Origin: an uncultured Opitutaceae bacterium
GTDB lineage: Bacteria; Verrucomicrobiota; Verrucomicrobiia; Opitutales; Opitutaceae
DNA: 64,000 bases
Assembly: GCA_903890485.1 (NCBI GenBank)
Contig: CAITBM010000116.1
Coordinates: forward strand, 1 to 64,000
Direction of reading: 5' to 3'
The translations under genes and the position numbers were made by a program. This document shows, piece after piece, positions 18,632 to 25,845 of this stretch. Positions within the stretch are counted from its first letter, which is position 1, and each line of letters begins with the position of its first letter. The notes below the pieces were generated by a model that saw only the letters and a program-made list of their open reading frames with translations, did no database searches and had not been told where the DNA came from.

Positions 18632-18744
18632 GAATACCGCGAAAGCTATCCGGTTTCGGCCCTTCCACCAGTAGAAACCGCCATCACCTCTTCGTGACAC
18701 AGGAACGGATTGCATCCCCGTCCCGCCCGGGCCAATGTCCCGGC

Positions 18745-20235
18745 ATGAGCGAACAGAAGGATCTGCTGACGACAAATCAGAAGGCGCTGACCATCAACCT
18801 GGACATGCCCAAGTACGGCACGTTCGCGGAGATTGGCGCCGGCCAGGAGGTCGCCCGCGAATTCTTCCAGGCCGGCGGCGCCTCCGGGACCATTGCCAAG
18901 TCCATTTCCGCCTACGACATGGTCTTCAGCGACGCAATCTACGGGAAGGCCCCCCGCTATGTCTCGCGCGAACGCCTGAAGCTGATGCTCGACCACGAGT
19001 ACCAGCTGCTGATCGACCGGCTTTCCACGACTCGCGGGGATCGCACCACCTTCTTCGTGTTCGCCGACACGGTCGCAACGAGCAACTACAAGGGGACAAA
19101 CGAGGCCCACGGATGGCTCGGACTGCGGTTTCAGACCGAGGCCAAGGGTGAGCCGAGCGAGATCGTGCTCCACGTCCGGATGTGGGACAAGGAGGCCGTC
19201 CTCCAGCAGCAGGCGCTCGGCAAGGTGGGCGTCAACTTTCTCTACGGGGCCTTCTACTACCGTGACGACCTTGGAAAGCTGATCGAGTCGCTCAGGGACA
19301 ACCTGGGCACGGACCGAATCGAGATCGACATGCTGCGCTTCTCCGGGCCGGCATTCGCGAACGTGGACAACCGCCTGATGTCACTTTACCTGGTCAAATT
19401 CGGCCTGACCAACGCGGTCATGTTCGGGCAGAAGGGCGAGGTCCTCCAACCTTCCGAGGTCCTCCACAAGAAGGCCATCCTGGTCGAGCGCGGCAGTTTC
19501 AGGCCCGTGACCCACGTGAACGTCGACATGCTCAACTGCGCGACCGCCCAGTTCGTGCAGGAGCCCCTGGTGAAGGGCAAGGACCTGGTGGTCATCATGG
19601 AGATCACCATGAACAACCTCCTGGCGGCCGGAGCCCTCGACGCCCACGACTTCCTCTCGAGGGTCGACCTCCTGGCCGACATAGGGTTCACGGTGCTGAT
19701 CTCCAACTATTCCGAGTACTATCGCCTAACCTCGTACTTCCGCAGGTACACCAAGGAGATGATCGGGGTGACCATGGGGATCAACAACCTGCTGGAGATC
19801 TTCAACGAGAAGTACTACGAGAACCTGGAGGGCGGCATCCTCGAGTCGTTCGGGCGGCTCTTCCGCAACTCGGTGAAGCTGTACATCTACCCGATGCGCC
19901 AGGACGCCTACGAAGCCTATGTCGCGCAGAACGAATTCGGCCACGGCGTGTCGAACCATGCGTTTGCCTCGAACGTCCTGATCAACGCGAAGAACGTTAA
20001 GATCGTCGACCATCTCTCAAACCTCTACGCCCACCTGCTGGAGAACCACTATATCGACTGCATCGTCGGCTTTGACACGAAGATCCTGAGCATCTTCTCC
20101 CGCGACGTGCTCCGCCGGATCAAGGAGAAGGACCCCACCTGGGAGACCATGGTGCCGACCCCGGTTGTCGAGGCCATCAAGCGAAGGGGGCTCTTTGGCT
20201 ATGCCGAGGCGCCGGTCGCAGCGGCTGGCAAGTGA
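18745..20235 (+). CDS. Conserved protein of unknown function
   Basis: 496 residues, soluble, no signal peptide or membrane helix. It opens with LLTTNQKALTINLDMPKYGT then FAEIGAGQEVAREFF and has strongly patterned segments such as SAYDMVFSDAIYG, YVSRERLKLMLDHEY, NEAHGWLGLRFQ, NVDMLNCATAQFV and VTMGINNLLEIFNEKYY. I recognise this as a conserved bacterial family whose members carry inconsistent automatic names (nicotinate-nucleotide adenylyltransferase or TonB-dependent receptor, from memory). The HxGH signature of adenylyltransferases is not visible and there is no beta-barrel or plug, so neither name is supported. Its stop overlaps a GTG three codons upstream of the DapF-like start, so the two are coupled. 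Confidence 0.8.
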   Translation: MSEQKDLLTTNQKALTINLDMPKYGTFAEIGAGQEVAREFFQAGGASGTIAKSISAYDMVFSDAIYGKAPRYVSRERLKLMLDHEYQLLIDRLSTTRGDRTTFFVFADTVATSNYKGTNEAHGWLGLRFQTEAKGEPSEIVLHVRMWDKEAVLQQQALGKVGVNFLYGAFYYRDDLGKLIESLRDNLGTDRIEIDMLRFSGPAFANVDNRLMSLYLVKFGLTNAVMFGQKGEVLQPSEVLHKKAILVERGSFRPVTHVNVDMLNCATAQFVQEPLVKGKDLVVIMEITMNNLLAAGALDAHDFLSRVDLLADIGFTVLISNYSEYYRLTSYFRRYTKEMIGVTMGINNLLEIFNEKYYENLEGGILESFGRLFRNSVKLYIYPMRQDAYEAYVAQNEFGHGVSNHAFASNVLINAKNVKIVDHLSNLYAHLLENHYIDCIVGFDTKILSIFSRDVLRRIKEKDPTWETMVPTPVVEAIKRRGLFGYAEAPVAAAGK

Positions 20236-20237
20236 CC

Positions 20238-21089
20238 ATGCGCTTCCACAAGTACCACGCACTCGGCAACGACTACATCGTACTCGACCCCGCCGACTTT
20301 CCGGGCTGGACGACGCCGAACCTCGACCAGATCCGCGTCATTTGCCACCGCAACTTCGGCGTGGGCTCAGACGGCATTCTCTGGGGGCCCCTGCCGACGT
20401 CGAAGGCCGACTTCGGCCTGCGGATCTACAATCCGGACGGCTCCGAGGCAGAGAAGTCGGGCAACGGCCTGAGGATCTTCTCCCGGTACCTCTGGGACCA
20501 GAAGCGGGTGAGCGCGCCCACCTTCACGGTCGAGACGCCAGGCGGTGTCGTCCAGTCCGAGATCAAGGAGCAAGGCAAGCTGATCACTGTCGCCATGGGA
20601 AAGGTGAGCTTCGAGAGCTCGCGCATCCCGGTGAAGGGCCCCTCGCGCGAGGTCCTCGGGGAGACGATCGAGGTGCAAGGCCGGCGTTTCACGTTTTCGG
20701 CTGCCACGATCGGCAACCCGCACTGCGTGCTCCCCGTTGACGACCTGTCCCCGGAGCTTGCCCGGCGTTACGGTCCCGACATCGAGGTCAATCCCCTCTT
20801 CCCGAACCGAACCAACGTCCAGTTCCTGCGCGTCCTAAGCCGCGCGGCAATCCAGATCGAGATCTGGGAGCGGGGCGCGGGCTACACGCTGGCCTCGGGC
20901 AGCAGCTCGAGCGCCGCGGCTGCCGTCGCCCACAGGCTCGGCTTGGTCGACCGCTCCGTCACGGTGAACATGCCCGGCGGGCAGATCGGCATCGAGATCG
21001 GCGACGGGTTTGCGATCACCATGACTGGCACGGTGAACAAGGTGGCCGAGGGTGAGATGCACCCGCAGCTCTTCGAGGTCAAAGTCTAG
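20238..21089 (+). CDS. DapF-fold protein with both catalytic cysteines replaced by serine
   Basis: 283 residues, full DapF length, starting MRFHKYHALGNDYIVLDPAD. Diaminopimelate epimerase interconverts LL- and meso-diaminopimelate using two cysteines (E. coli Cys73 in CGNG and Cys217 in CGTG). Here the first is Ser74 (EKSGNGLR) and the second Ser220 (ASGSSSS). Other elements remain: VGSDGILWG, RIYNPDGSEAE, IGNPHCVLPV and the anion-binding GNG. It may be a slow epimerase, a related isomerase or dehydratase, or a genuinely different activity; automatic annotation as dapF would be unsafe. GTG 20232 is an alternative start, overlapping the preceding stop. Convergent with the HDOD gene. Confidence 0.85.
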   Translation: MRFHKYHALGNDYIVLDPADFPGWTTPNLDQIRVICHRNFGVGSDGILWGPLPTSKADFGLRIYNPDGSEAEKSGNGLRIFSRYLWDQKRVSAPTFTVETPGGVVQSEIKEQGKLITVAMGKVSFESSRIPVKGPSREVLGETIEVQGRRFTFSAATIGNPHCVLPVDDLSPELARRYGPDIEVNPLFPNRTNVQFLRVLSRAAIQIEIWERGAGYTLASGSSSSAAAAVAHRLGLVDRSVTVNMPGGQIGIEIGDGFAITMTGTVNKVAEGEMHPQLFEVKV

Positions 21090-22013: not shown

Positions 22014-22431
22014 GGGTTGTTGGAAAAGGGATAAGCGCCCTTCAATTCGGGCCCGGATTCGCGCAAGCCGACCCCGGGGCATTCAACTGCCCAAATAGGA
22101 GGGTCCAAGCCCTGCGCCCGGCCGACAAAAAGGTCATCTAACTTCCATCGGACCAACATGTGCCGGGATTGAGTCGAATAACTGAAATTTACTGCTCATT
22201 TCTTGTCATTTTGGCCGCCGTGGACCCCTCATCGGGATAGCCGAATGAACGCCGCCCGCCGACAGGGCGTTGTTATCGCAACTATATAGCTCCAACCGGC
22301 CGATCTCCCACGCAACCGGCCCAATAAGGCGCTGGGCACCAATGAAACCGGCGTTTTTGACCGTTGCGCGGGCCGGGGTGGCGGGCCATCGTGGCCGTGT
22401 GACTGGTAGCGATGCCTCCAGCGGGCTGCCG
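22014..22431. other. 418-base noncoding gap between the HDOD gene and the exosortase gene
   Basis: Divergent intergenic region, clearly richer in A and T (for example around 22190-22215 and 22270-22290) than the surrounding genes, so it probably holds promoters for both sides. A TATATAG at about 22284-22290 is a possible -10 element for the exosortase side, without a convincing -35 element. No RNA gene, riboswitch or repeat was recognised. Part of it (from 22342) would become coding if the exosortase used an earlier start. Confidence 0.5.
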
Positions 22432-23994
22432 ATGTCGGCAAAGTTCAACCTTGTGGCTATGGCACTCCTTGCCGGGGCGCTCACCGTCCACCTGTGGCCG
22501 GAGTGGACCCATGATCCCGATCTTTCGCACGGGCTGCTGATGCCGGTAGCCTGCGCGCTCCTGCTTTACCTGTGCCGCCGGCCGCACGGGGGGCCCTTCC
22601 TACGGGAGCCCCACGCAGCCGCCCTCACTGCTGCGCTGGGTTTTGCGGGACTTGTCGGACTCTGGCTGGCAAGCCTGCTCGCCGTCACGGTCGACTGGTC
22701 GAGCCCCGTGGTCGACTTTGTGCTCGCGGGGTCCTTCGCCCTGGTCGGCTGCGCCGCCATCGCAGCCTTTTCCAGTGAACGGACGGCCCTGTTGCCCTTC
22801 ACCTGGACCTCCCTATCCGCCGCGCTCCTCTGGGTCCTGTGTTCGCCCCTGCCGCCGGGAAGCTACACCCGGCTCACCCTGGGGCTTCAGCTTTGGGTGA
22901 GCAGCAGCGTCATGCAGGCCCTCGACCTCCTGGGGATCGCCGCCCATCGGCAGGGCAACGTCATCGAGCTGGCGCGGGGAACGGTCGGCATCGAAGAGGC
23001 CTGCAGCGGGGTGCGAAGCTTGGTTTCGTGCGTTTTCGCCGGCGTTCTGTTCTCGGCCACTCTGGTTCGCCGGCCGTGGGCGCGGGTCCTCCTTGTGGCG
23101 CTCTCCGTGCCCCTTGCGCTCGCGATGAACTTCCTGCGATCGCTCTTCCTCACGCTCCTGGTGAACGCCGGCGTGCGGGTTGAGGGGGCGTGGCATGACC
23201 TGACCGGCTACGCCGTGCTCCTGGCCACTGCGGCGCTCCTGGTCGCGATCGCGATCGCCCTGGACCGCCCGCCGCCCCGGGAAGCCGAGGACGAATCCCC
23301 AGGTGGTCCTTCCCCAGGCACCCCCTTGCGCTCCCAGAGGGCCCTGACGGCAACCGTCTGCCTCGTCGCCTTGACCCTGCTCTTTTTCGCGGCGAACACG
23401 GCGTCCAGCCCGGATGCCGGAAAACCCGCGCCGGACCTTTTCGCTGCGCTGCCCACCTCGGCCGAGGGCTGGCAGGTGGTCACCCGAGGCGACCTCTACC
23501 GCTTTGCGGGAGTCCTCCGGACCGAGCACCTGGCGGAGCGAACCTACATCAGGCAGGGCAAGGAAGGGGCCGAGCAGGTCACCCTCTACGTGGCCTTCTG
23601 GCAGGCGGGCCAGGCCTCCGCGGGCCTCGTCGGATCCCACACTCCGGACGCCTGCTGGCCCGGATCCGGATGGACCCAGGAAGCGGTGCAAGACGGGTCC
23701 GTCGCGCTGGCGGCGGGGGCCCAGCACCTTCCCCAGGCCCAACACCGCCTCTTCCAGAACGAGGGCTACCTCCAGCACGTCTGGTTTTGGCAGGTCTACG
23801 GCGGGCAAGTAATCGACGTCGGCAACACACGAAGCGTCCCGGCGCTGGTCCGGATCGCACTGCAGTTTGGTTTCCGCAAGGCAGGCCAGCAGGTCTTCAT
23901 CCGCGTGTCCTCCAACCGTACCTGGAACGAGTTCTCGGACGAACCGTTTGTCACCGAGTTTTTTGCGCGGGCCCGGACACTCGGGCTTTACTGA
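22432..23994 (+). CDS. Exosortase fused to an EpsI-like C-terminal domain
   Basis: About 520 residues. The N-terminal 290 residues form a multi-pass exosortase with the catalytic triad visible: Cys191 in EEACSGVRSL, Arg236 in MNFLRSL, His255 in WHDLTGY. The sorting-site approach motif DPDLSHGLLMP precedes. After one more membrane helix, residues about 330-520 form a periplasmic EpsI/DUF3485-type domain (SAEGWQVVTRGDLYRF, YVAFWQAGQAS, SHTPDACWPGSGW). Exosortases cut PEP-CTERM-like tails of exported proteins in bacteria with exopolysaccharide systems; no PEP-CTERM protein was recognised in this window. ATG 22432 fits the family start; ATG 22342 and GTG 22399 are in-frame alternatives. Confidence 0.9.
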   Translation: MSAKFNLVAMALLAGALTVHLWPEWTHDPDLSHGLLMPVACALLLYLCRRPHGGPFLREPHAAALTAALGFAGLVGLWLASLLAVTVDWSSPVVDFVLAGSFALVGCAAIAAFSSERTALLPFTWTSLSAALLWVLCSPLPPGSYTRLTLGLQLWVSSSVMQALDLLGIAAHRQGNVIELARGTVGIEEACSGVRSLVSCVFAGVLFSATLVRRPWARVLLVALSVPLALAMNFLRSLFLTLLVNAGVRVEGAWHDLTGYAVLLATAALLVAIAIALDRPPPREAEDESPGGPSPGTPLRSQRALTATVCLVALTLLFFAANTASSPDAGKPAPDLFAALPTSAEGWQVVTRGDLYRFAGVLRTEHLAERTYIRQGKEGAEQVTLYVAFWQAGQASAGLVGSHTPDACWPGSGWTQEAVQDGSVALAAGAQHLPQAQHRLFQNEGYLQHVWFWQVYGGQVIDVGNTRSVPALVRIALQFGFRKAGQQVFIRVSSNRTWNEFSDEPFVTEFFARARTLGLY

Positions 23995-24034: not shown

Positions 24035-24661
24035 ATGGACGACGACAAGAATCCCCTCCCCTCCTGGCTGCCCTGGGCCACGACAGCGTGCCTTGCGGCC
24101 CTTGTCGCGTGCCTGGGCGAGCTGTGGATCCTAGAGAAGGCCCGGCTCGGCCTGATGCGCGACGAGAACCTCCTCACCTCGGCCGCGCTCAAGGGCGCGG
24201 AAAACCAGCTCGAGGCCGAGCACATCCTCGAGCGGCGCCTGCGCTCGACGCACGGGATCCCGGGTGGCGACGCCACCCTCGAGGTCGAACTCCTGTTGCC
24301 TCCATCGACCGGCGCTTCGCCCGGATCTCCGCCCTGGGGAGCCGTGGCATGGGAATCCGGGACGGGGAACGCCCTTCTGCGGGTTTCCGGGCTTCAGGAC
24401 GCGGGACCCGACGCCGCCTATGAGCTTTGGCTTGAGGGAACCGGGCAAGGGTATCCCTACCGGTGCTCCACCCTCGCCGCTGACGGTGCGTCCGGACCGA
24501 CCAGCTTCCAGGTGAGACCGACATATCCAGTCGCGAATGGATGTCGCTTCCTTCTGATCCTCTGCAAGAAAGAGGGCGAGACCCCTGCCGCTCTGGCCCT
24601 CCCCGAGGGTTCAATCGTACTTGCCAGCCTCCCGTACTCCCCAAAAATCACAAAACGATGA
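24035..24661 (+). CDS. Single-pass membrane protein with anti-sigma-K-like extracytoplasmic domain
   Basis: 208 residues. A membrane helix near the N-terminus (WATTACLAALVACLGELWIL) is followed by a helical segment and an extracytoplasmic domain with the pattern LLRVSGLQDAGPDAAYELWL, which resembles the RskA / anti-sigma-K C-terminal domain (the YxLWL motif). There is no N-terminal zinc-binding anti-sigma domain and no sigma factor gene nearby, so it may not be a true anti-sigma factor. It begins 40 bases after the exosortase and its stop overlaps the fabV start (ATGA), so it may support envelope sorting or simply share the transcript. Confidence 0.7.
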   Translation: MDDDKNPLPSWLPWATTACLAALVACLGELWILEKARLGLMRDENLLTSAALKGAENQLEAEHILERRLRSTHGIPGGDATLEVELLLPPSTGASPGSPPWGAVAWESGTGNALLRVSGLQDAGPDAAYELWLEGTGQGYPYRCSTLAADGASGPTSFQVRPTYPVANGCRFLLILCKKEGETPAALALPEGSIVLASLPYSPKITKR

Positions 24662-25845
24662 TCATCAGACCCAAGGTTCGCGGATTCGTGTGCGTGACGG
24701 CCCACCCAGCCGGGTGCGCCGCCCATGTGGACGAATGGATCGGGCACGTGAAGGGCAAGGGTCCCCTCAAGAACGGCCCCAAGAAGGTCCTCGTCATCGG
24801 GGCATCAACGGGTTACGGCCTGGCGTCCCGGGTAGCGGCAGCGTTTGGCTCGAACGCGGCCACACTCGGCATCTTTTTCGAGCGCCCCTCCGAGGAGGGC
24901 CGGACGGCGACCCCGGGCTGGTACAATTCCATCGGGTTCACCCGTGCGGCGCACGCCGCAGGGCTCTACGCCAAGAACATCAACGGCGACGCCTTTTCCA
25001 ACGAGATCAAGGCCCAGGCCCTTGAGACCATCAAAAATGATCTGGGCCAGGTGGACCTGGTCGTCTACTCGCTTGCATCGCCGCGGCGCACCCACCCGAC
25101 CACGGGCGTCGTGCACAAGTCCGTCCTCAAACCGGTGGGCGTCTCCTATACGAACAAGACCGTGGACACGGACAAGGGCATCGTCAGCCAGGTCACCATC
25201 GACCCGGCAAGCGATCAGGAGGTCGCCGACACGGTTGCGGTCATGGGCGGCGAGGACTGGGAACTCTGGATCAACGCGCTGAAATCGGCCAACCTCCTCG
25301 CCCCGGGGGCGCAGTCTGTCGCCTATTCCTACATCGGGCCCGAGGTCACCTGGGCAATCTACAAGAACGGGACGATCGGCATCGCCAAGAACGACCTTGA
25401 GCGCGCGGCCAAGAGCATCGACTCCATCCTCAAGGCGAACGGCGGGGGGCGGGCCTTCATCTCCGTCAACAAGGCCCTGGTCACCCAGGCAAGCTCGGCG
25501 ATTCCCGTGGTCCCCCTCTACATTTCAATCCTCTATAAGATCATGAAGGCTGCCGGCACCCACGAGGGCTGCATCGAGCAGATTCAGCGGCTTTTTGCTG
25601 ACCACATGTACTCGGCGCGCGGCCCCGTGTTTGATGAAGCTGGCCGGGTCCGGGTGGACGATTGGGAGATGAGGCCCGAGATCCAGGCCAGCGTCGCGGC
25701 CATCTGGCCGCGGGTGACCACCGAGAACCTCGCGGCGGAGACCGACATCGCCGGCTACCGGGGCGAATTCCTGAAGCTCTTCGGGTTTGGGCTGAAGGGA
25801 ATCGACTACGAGCAGGATATCGAGCCCCACATGACGATGCTCTGA
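24658..25845 (+). CDS. fabV: Trans-2-enoyl-CoA / enoyl-ACP reductase FabV
   Basis: 395 residues, the usual FabV length. It reduces trans-2-enoyl-acyl carrier protein (or CoA) with NAD(P)H in the last step of the fatty-acid elongation cycle and is typically triclosan-resistant. Visible are MIIRPKVRGFVCVTAHPAGC at the N-terminus, the nucleotide-binding VIGASTGYGLASR, VYSLASPRR, the active-site segment with the long Tyr-x8-Lys spacing (SYIGPEVTWAIYKNGTIGIA), and the C-terminal GIDYEQDIEPHM. ATG 24658 overlaps the preceding stop. No other fab genes are adjacent. Confidence 0.95.
   Translation: MIIRPKVRGFVCVTAHPAGCAAHVDEWIGHVKGKGPLKNGPKKVLVIGASTGYGLASRVAAAFGSNAATLGIFFERPSEEGRTATPGWYNSIGFTRAAHAAGLYAKNINGDAFSNEIKAQALETIKNDLGQVDLVVYSLASPRRTHPTTGVVHKSVLKPVGVSYTNKTVDTDKGIVSQVTIDPASDQEVADTVAVMGGEDWELWINALKSANLLAPGAQSVAYSYIGPEVTWAIYKNGTIGIAKNDLERAAKSIDSILKANGGGRAFISVNKALVTQASSAIPVVPLYISILYKIMKAAGTHEGCIEQIQRLFADHMYSARGPVFDEAGRVRVDDWEMRPEIQASVAAIWPRVTTENLAAETDIAGYRGEFLKLFGFGLKGIDYEQDIEPHMTML

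Follow-up and report, generated by a model that had tools for sequence, protein, structure and literature searches.

A DapF-like subfamily of Verrucomicrobiota with serine at both catalytic cysteine positions, probably acting as a diaminopimelate epimerase

Results

The window analysed here, a stretch of 64,000 nucleotides from an uncultured Opitutaceae bacterium (assembly GCA_903890485.1, contig CAITBM010000116.1), carries on its plus strand a dapF-like gene at 20238..21089, which starts with an ATG at 20238, runs with its stop to 21089, and encodes a product of 283 amino acids recognized by TIGR00652, PF01678 and Foldseek. The motifs of this protein are GND (residues 10-12), GSDG (43-46), EKSGNG (72-77), IGNPH (158-162) and ERGAGYTLASGSS (211-223). 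Neither of the two catalytic cysteines of DapF is present. In the alignment with E. coli DapF, Ser74 (codon TCG, 20457..20459, plus strand) takes the place of catalytic Cys73 and Ser220 (codon TCG, 20895..20897, plus strand) that of catalytic Cys217, both in E. coli numbering. An earlier note on this DNA had claimed precisely these two replacements within an active site that is otherwise kept, and both parts of that claim hold, the first on the strength of this alignment and of 80 loci of other genomes, the second because the GNG, SDG and IGNPH motifs are as it described them. A sequencing or assembly error was considered and rejected, as both serines were found in 80 of those 80 loci; furthermore, a single wrong base would explain neither codon, because TCG sits two base changes from a Cys codon. 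A decaying gene was also rejected in view of the strong purifying selection on the window gene (dN/dS of 0.105-0.184 against eight relatives).

Directly upstream, on the same strand, lies an ORF of about 500 codons (18694..20235) whose stop falls 2 bases before the dapF start, and the two are probably read as one transcript. The ORF matches no Pfam or NCBIfam model. Of the related loci examined (the best 80 of 111), 63 have a homologue of it, at 61-96% identity; where upstream sequence exceeds 1.2 kb (76 loci), the homologue lies on the same strand, within 500 bases upstream of the dapF-like gene, in 37; the predicted product is thus a conserved protein outside any family named in Pfam or NCBIfam. 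Downstream, also on the plus strand, are an exosortase with a fused EpsI-like region (22270-23994), for which XrtD is the best model although its cut-off is not reached, and an enoyl-ACP reductase of the FabV type (24541-25845).

By family models and fold the protein belongs with DapF. TIGR00652, the equivalog model for DapF, scores it at 230.7 bits along its length against a cut-off of 114.65, and PF01678 at 187.9 bits; with a score so far above the cut-off, the change in catalytic residues is invisible to the family model. Of the 17 sequence matches in the PDB, 16 are named DapF and one is an O-ureidoserine racemase. An AlphaFold model built from 38 Ser/Ser sequences (pLDDT 93.2) found its best Foldseek match in P. 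aeruginosa DapF (8qzy; TM 0.90, rmsd 1.9, 38% identity), and in the model helices 75-87 and 221-233 start right after Ser74 and Ser220, respectively, the helix starts being where the catalytic cysteines of histidine racemase are reported to lie (PMC11602996). Proline racemase (PF05544) gave no match at E 0.001, PF01678 being the only family in the Pfam search. PrpF and PhzF gave no Pfam or NCBIfam match at the same threshold, and PhzF appeared only far down the Foldseek fold list, while the model for the bifunctional DapF/glutamate racemase (NF038284) scored 57.4 bits against a cut-off of 350.

The residues that hold the substrate are also those of DapF. In the Anabaena structure the reported DAP ligands are Asn13 at the reacting end and Asn66, Asn164, Asn197, Glu215 and Arg216 at the far end (PMC12039745), which correspond to Asn11, Asn65, Asn160, Asn193, Glu211 and Arg212 of the window protein, so that ligands for both ends of DAP are in place. 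Among 175 Ser/Ser sequences (repeats included), Asn65, Asn160, His162, Asn193, Glu211 and Arg212 are invariant and Asn11 is kept in 173, the other two having gaps. Given this conservation, the pocket would still recognise a two-ended substrate whose far end is L.

What did change became apparent when 152 distinct Ser/Ser sequences (the window protein included) were compared with 91 Cys/Cys sequences, the two groups being defined by the residues at the catalytic positions and freed of identical sequences, copies of the window gene and the Streptomyces protein described below. Lys73 (codon 20454..20456, plus strand) is found in 148 of the 152, the other four having Ile, and in none of the 91, where Met prevails (84). 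Tyr216 (codon 20883..20885, plus strand) is found in 150, with Arg or His in the other two, against none of the Cys/Cys proteins (Glu in 73). Tyr at position 13 is shared by 150 Ser/Ser sequences, with two gaps, and by 9 Cys/Cys sequences, 81 of which have Phe. Position 6 is Tyr in 150 Ser/Ser sequences (two gaps) and Met in 73 of the 91; position 223 is Ser in 151 of 152 and Gly in 91 of 91; position 80 is Ile in all 152 and Cys in 88 of 91; and position 195 is Gln in all 152, as opposed to Asn (56) or Glu (30) in the Cys/Cys group. In these alignments, the change in the Ser/Ser proteins lies in the catalytic pair and its shell.

Such a shell invites the alternative that the protein is indeed a DAP epimerase, but that its acid-base pair consists of Lys73 and, on the opposite face, Tyr216 or Tyr13, with no cofactor involved. 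Alanine racemase, which uses a Lys/Tyr pair, offers a loose parallel, and these three residues arose along with the serines, as the counts above indicate. Position 73, moreover, is described as part of a loop that curves round the substrate in solved DapFs, although the same source reports no direct hydrogen bond between the loop residues there and the ligand (PMC12039745). Because Lys73 and Tyr216 do give way to other residues in a few sequences, whereas both serines are constant in all clade members read, we regard this arrangement as possible but rather unlikely. A second alternative is a DAP epimerase with a moved thiol, either Cys163, which adjoins the active-site His162, or Cys36. The former is present in 145 of 152 Ser/Ser but only 5 of 91 Cys/Cys sequences, and the latter in all 151 Ser/Ser sequences that have a residue at that position. 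However, Ala or Val replaces Cys163 in seven Ser/Ser sequences from several families, Cys36 is also found in 67 of the 91 Cys/Cys proteins, which retain their catalytic pair, and the solved Cys/Cys DapFs of Anabaena and Arabidopsis contain both cysteines. A moved thiol is therefore judged very unlikely, and the serines themselves are the preferred candidates.

DapL makes LL-DAP and LysA uses meso-DAP, and a genome with both needs an epimerase. The source genome (3.1 Mb in 144 contigs, 97% complete) encodes DapL (563.6 bits), LysA (438.7 bits) and a MurE (507.4 bits) with the DNPR motif, which we take to be that of the DAP-adding enzyme. In this 97%-complete assembly no PF01678 protein was found besides that of the window, and meso-DAP dehydrogenase (Ddh) gave no match at E 0.001, leaving a pathway that requires an LL-to-meso step with no bypass detected, and for the required epimerase the search turned up no candidate from a known family other than the window protein. 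The earlier note was right to ask where meso-DAP would come from, but the other DapF or other route that it expected is not supported, its suggested search for a second DapF with both cysteines having come back empty in this assembly. The lack of any other DapF was in fact half of what the note had said would overturn its idea.

The Ser/Ser state is not peculiar to this genome. When named genomes were scanned, an approach that picks up close relatives, the best 80 of 111 (69.6-87% identical to the window protein) were those with serine at both positions mentioned above, and their titles read Opitutaceae, Opitutae, Opitutia, single Opitutaceae genera, or Verrucomicrobia/Verrucomicrobiota. A Lacunisphaera MAG (L071) also has the Ser/Ser form. 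A split that does not depend on the catalytic residues gives the same picture: among 170 sequences that share 40% identity or more with the window protein over no fewer than 200 aligned residues, with several loci repeating one species, 169 are Ser/Ser and one, from Paenibacillus at 40% identity, is Cys/Cys. The full alignment of 273 rows (the window protein and 272 loci, repeats included) holds 176 Ser/Ser, 91 Cys/Cys and 2 Ser/Cys rows, these last being one gene at two loci, together with 4 rows in which one position is missing. Ten further Ser/Ser proteins, nine identified by alignment and the tenth by its motifs, occur in other families of the phylum (f46, f66 and f71), one of them (L295) with Val instead of Gly75. 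The Ser/Ser form is also seen in two members of f36 and in one of f52; the three other f36 members read are Cys/Cys, as are those read from the remaining families of the class to which the window belongs.

A tree of 78 rows, made without positions 73, 74, 216 and 220, placed all 44 Ser/Ser rows in one group with support of 100/100, a value that does not cover the Ser/Cys protein of G330 or Streptomyces L281, both of which were left out, as were several Ser/Ser proteins of reduced genomes (L128, L129 and L258-L263). These eight were, however, used or represented in a first tree (by L128, L129, L258, L259, L260 and L263), where they fell inside the Ser/Ser group. Seven Cys/Cys DapFs of Opitutales branched within those of the class, and an eighth (G507, L234) elsewhere among the Cys/Cys proteins. 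The simplest history suggested by this tree would be one origin of the double Cys-to-Ser change in the phylum, followed by spread and replacement among lineages; several origins within Verrucomicrobiota were considered, and the tree does not require them. The Ser/Cys protein belongs to the DapF family and is encoded by a 1.0-Mb Opitutales genome (G330, C7, about 18800-19500; a single gene, listed as both L247 and L264). Its very long branch joined another long branch in the first tree, and it may be an intermediate or a decayed form.

A distant Ser/Ser member of the DapF family (L281/L283) was also seen on plasmid unnamed2 of Streptomyces sp. NBC_01216 (NZ_CP108679.1, 27834-28778). It is about 41% identical to the window protein, lacks Lys73 and Tyr216, and its neighbours are annotated as an ornithine cyclodeaminase family protein, a threonine/serine dehydratase, a 2OG-Fe dioxygenase, an aminotransferase and a molybdopterin oxidoreductase, so that it possibly belongs to a small-molecule pathway and acts on another substrate.

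To what extent the two forms coexist was addressed by a census, tallied by hand, of 331 genomes of Opitutales with a completeness of 90% or more; the window protein has a match in 304 of them. It placed 271 genomes as Ser/Ser only, 30 as Cys/Cys only, one with both (G501), one with Ser/Cys (G330), one with a fragment showing Ser74 (G327), and 27 without a match. Most genomes were classed by score and the sequence was read directly where fetched. This was the case for 77 of the 272 Ser/Ser-bearing genomes (75 at both positions and two fragments at one) and for 21 of the 30 Cys/Cys-only genomes (L246 among these being a fragment). G507, read as Cys/Cys, would have been put in the wrong class on the strength of its score (E 3.9e-46). 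Not all first-look candidates (up to seven) were scored in each genome, so a second DapF could escape. Second matches, taken without reading the sequence, occurred in G357, G397, G426 and G294, as well as in G267 and G231 outside the order, and that of G424, at 424.5 bits, looks Ser/Ser. Under independence both forms would be expected together in about 25 genomes and were observed in one, a difference for which kinship makes a p-value meaningless. The Cys/Cys-only genomes are spread over six genera of family f1 and over f8, f77 and f19. Across the 331 genomes, the Ser/Ser form stands in for the Cys/Cys form and vice versa. In G501 both forms were read (L238/L285 and L249/L286), and G162, outside the order, likewise has one Ser/Ser and one Cys/Cys protein (L236 and L284). 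This coexistence counts against a DAP epimerase, and makes both genomes useful for testing whether the two forms share a function.

When 23 of the 27 genomes without a match were searched with the DapF model, no DapF was found. Ddh scored over its cut-off in 11 of these 23, compared to 8 of 102 genomes with DapF (Fisher p 2e-5, kinship ignored), in a panel of 125 genomes, 7 from outside the order, that was tallied by hand and is not random, as kin of the DapF-less genomes were added on purpose; one member, G203, was classed as Cys/Cys by score. All eight genomes with both DapF and Ddh are Ser/Ser. In f1 genus g3, f19 genus g204 and f16 genus g40, Ddh and a Ser/Ser DapF occur together in some genomes and Ddh alone in their kin, the pattern to be expected if acquiring the bypass permits the epimerase to be lost. 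In the other 12 of the 23, Ddh was not found either, which also counts against the DAP epimerase reading. Some of these are fragmented or of about 1 Mb, but G033 (97% complete, with DapL and a LysA match over cut-off), G314 (one contig, 95%) and G435 (four contigs, 93%) are hard to set aside. Either assembly gaps or another, so far unrecognised epimerase would account for the 12.

These 12 genomes also leave room for the proposal of the earlier note that the protein may be a different isomerase or dehydratase; it would then act on another amino acid or on a hydroxylated one, with meso-DAP coming from an epimerase of another type. Thr or Ser instead of Cys is reported to accompany dehydratase activity in the hydroxyproline enzymes of the superfamily (PMC4113996), Ser mutants of glutamate racemase are reported to eliminate chloroglutamate, and the Streptomyces relative sits amid small-molecule pathway genes. 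On the other hand, all far-end DAP ligands are invariant in the Ser/Ser proteins, the gene is nearly always present in one copy per genome, a Cys/Cys DapF takes its place in other lineages, and the window offers no catabolic gene context. With the DAP-binding residues kept in 173-175 of 175 sequences and neither another DapF nor Ddh found in the source genome, this proposal lacks support and we consider it improbable.

Discussion

DapF is the textbook example of two-thiol catalysis and has been studied as a target for antibacterials. The canonical enzyme removes the alpha-proton with one thiolate and donates a proton from the other thiol on the opposite face; as serine is much less acidic than cysteine, a Ser/Ser epimerase is chemically unexpected. 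We know of no cofactor-independent amino-acid epimerase that lacks a catalytic cysteine on both faces, and this would be the first. A search of the open-access literature, by titles and the starts of abstracts, found no description of a DapF without both cysteines. The window protein belongs to a Ser/Ser DapF-like subfamily, a non-canonical DapF that probably works as DapF does. As far as the genomes show, in fact, this subfamily would work like DapF in spite of lacking the catalytic residues that define the family, and the Ser/Ser enzyme, usually the sole copy in its genome, probably still works with a catalytic pair free of cysteine. For the window protein itself, family models and fold, retained ligands, purifying selection, pathway context and the replacement pattern among relatives together make a working DAP epimerase likely. 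In such a scheme, LL-DAP from DapL would be converted to meso-DAP by the window protein, and meso-DAP would then be passed to MurE for the cell wall and to LysA for lysine.

If the protein is a DAP epimerase, there is a good chance, of about two in three, that Ser74 and Ser220 are its acid-base pair; each lies where a central helix begins, as did the cysteine it replaces, and the two would be on opposite faces of the substrate carbon. Epimerase function and a Ser/Ser mechanism taken together are favoured by a small margin over their failure. That two serines would need help follows from the Ser/Thr and Cys/Thr relatives being dehydratases and from the impairment of Cys-to-Ser mutants of the related histidine racemase, reported to be great (PMC11602996). 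Also counting against the serines, Chlamydia DapF is reported to need both cysteines in a complementation test with Ala mutants. Such help might come from Lys73, Tyr216, Tyr13 and Ser223, gained alongside the serines, which could activate or position Ser74 and Ser220. Lys73, Tyr216 and Tyr13 would either activate the serines or replace them, and we infer that their joint appearance is the best clue. It is an even call whether the thiol chemistry of a cofactor-independent amino-acid epimerase has been given up entirely across a large bacterial group, with the alpha-proton taken and restored at a remodelled site where Ser74 and Ser220 act with, or hand over to, Lys73, Tyr216 and Tyr13. If so, the active site should not react with thiol-directed reagents. 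A natural Ser/Ser subfamily of hundreds, with Cys/Cys relatives as controls, also raises the question of what the thiols do.

These findings bear on the dispute as to whether Opitutales, once reported without DAP, make meso-DAP and how. Coraliomargarita akajimensis was reported to lack muramic acid and DAP (PMC3035286). With GC/MS, Rast et al. reported DAP in Opitutus terrae and in three strains of Lacunisphaera, nearly tenfold below E. coli, with negative thin-layer chromatography and without stated stereochemistry in the available text, which lists DapL and DapF for one strain and does not contain the word epimerase (PMC5303756). The GC/MS detection, taken with the Ser/Ser form of the Lacunisphaera MAG, speaks for a DAP epimerase; the low amounts, the negative thin-layer tests and the Coraliomargarita report speak against it. 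It could be argued from such low or undetected DAP, from the ornithine reported beside it (PMC5303756), and from a structure of E. coli DapF with its partner RppH (6d13, by entry title), that epimerization is lost or unneeded in a wall of LL-DAP or another diamino acid, the protein being kept for a non-catalytic role. We find this highly improbable, as LysA, which needs meso-DAP, is present, the active site is strictly conserved, and genomes without DapF tend to have Ddh, which is no substitute for a binding role.

The Ser/Ser protein, which we favour as a DAP epimerase, can finally be set beside known systems. With canonical DapF (TIGR00652; P. aeruginosa 8qzy, Anabaena 9mro, E. coli 4ijz) it shares the model, the fold, the DAP ligands, His162 and Glu211, as well as catalytic residues at helix starts and the pathway context; it differs in Ser/Ser for Cys/Cys, in Met73 to Lys, Glu216 to Tyr and Phe13 to Tyr, and in other shell changes. 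The bifunctional DapF/glutamate racemase of Chlamydia trachomatis, from a related phylum, is likewise a remodelled DapF, but reportedly retains both cysteines, which are needed for its racemase activity. The H. influenzae DapF variants C73S (2q9h) and C217S (2q9j) have, by their entry titles, serine at one position each in the same fold, but are laboratory single mutants with an otherwise canonical active site. The trans-3-hydroxyproline dehydratases, with Ser/Thr or Cys/Thr pairs, share the superfamily fold and the use of hydroxyls for thiols, but they remove water from hydroxyproline (PMC4113996), whereas the window protein retains the far-end ligands of DAP. A precedent for serine chemistry is 4-hydroxyproline 2-epimerase B9JQV3, a natural epimerase of the same superfamily fold reported to use a Ser93/Cys236 pair and thus one serine as an acid-base residue (PMC4113996), which however faces a single serine with a cysteine and belongs to another family with another substrate.
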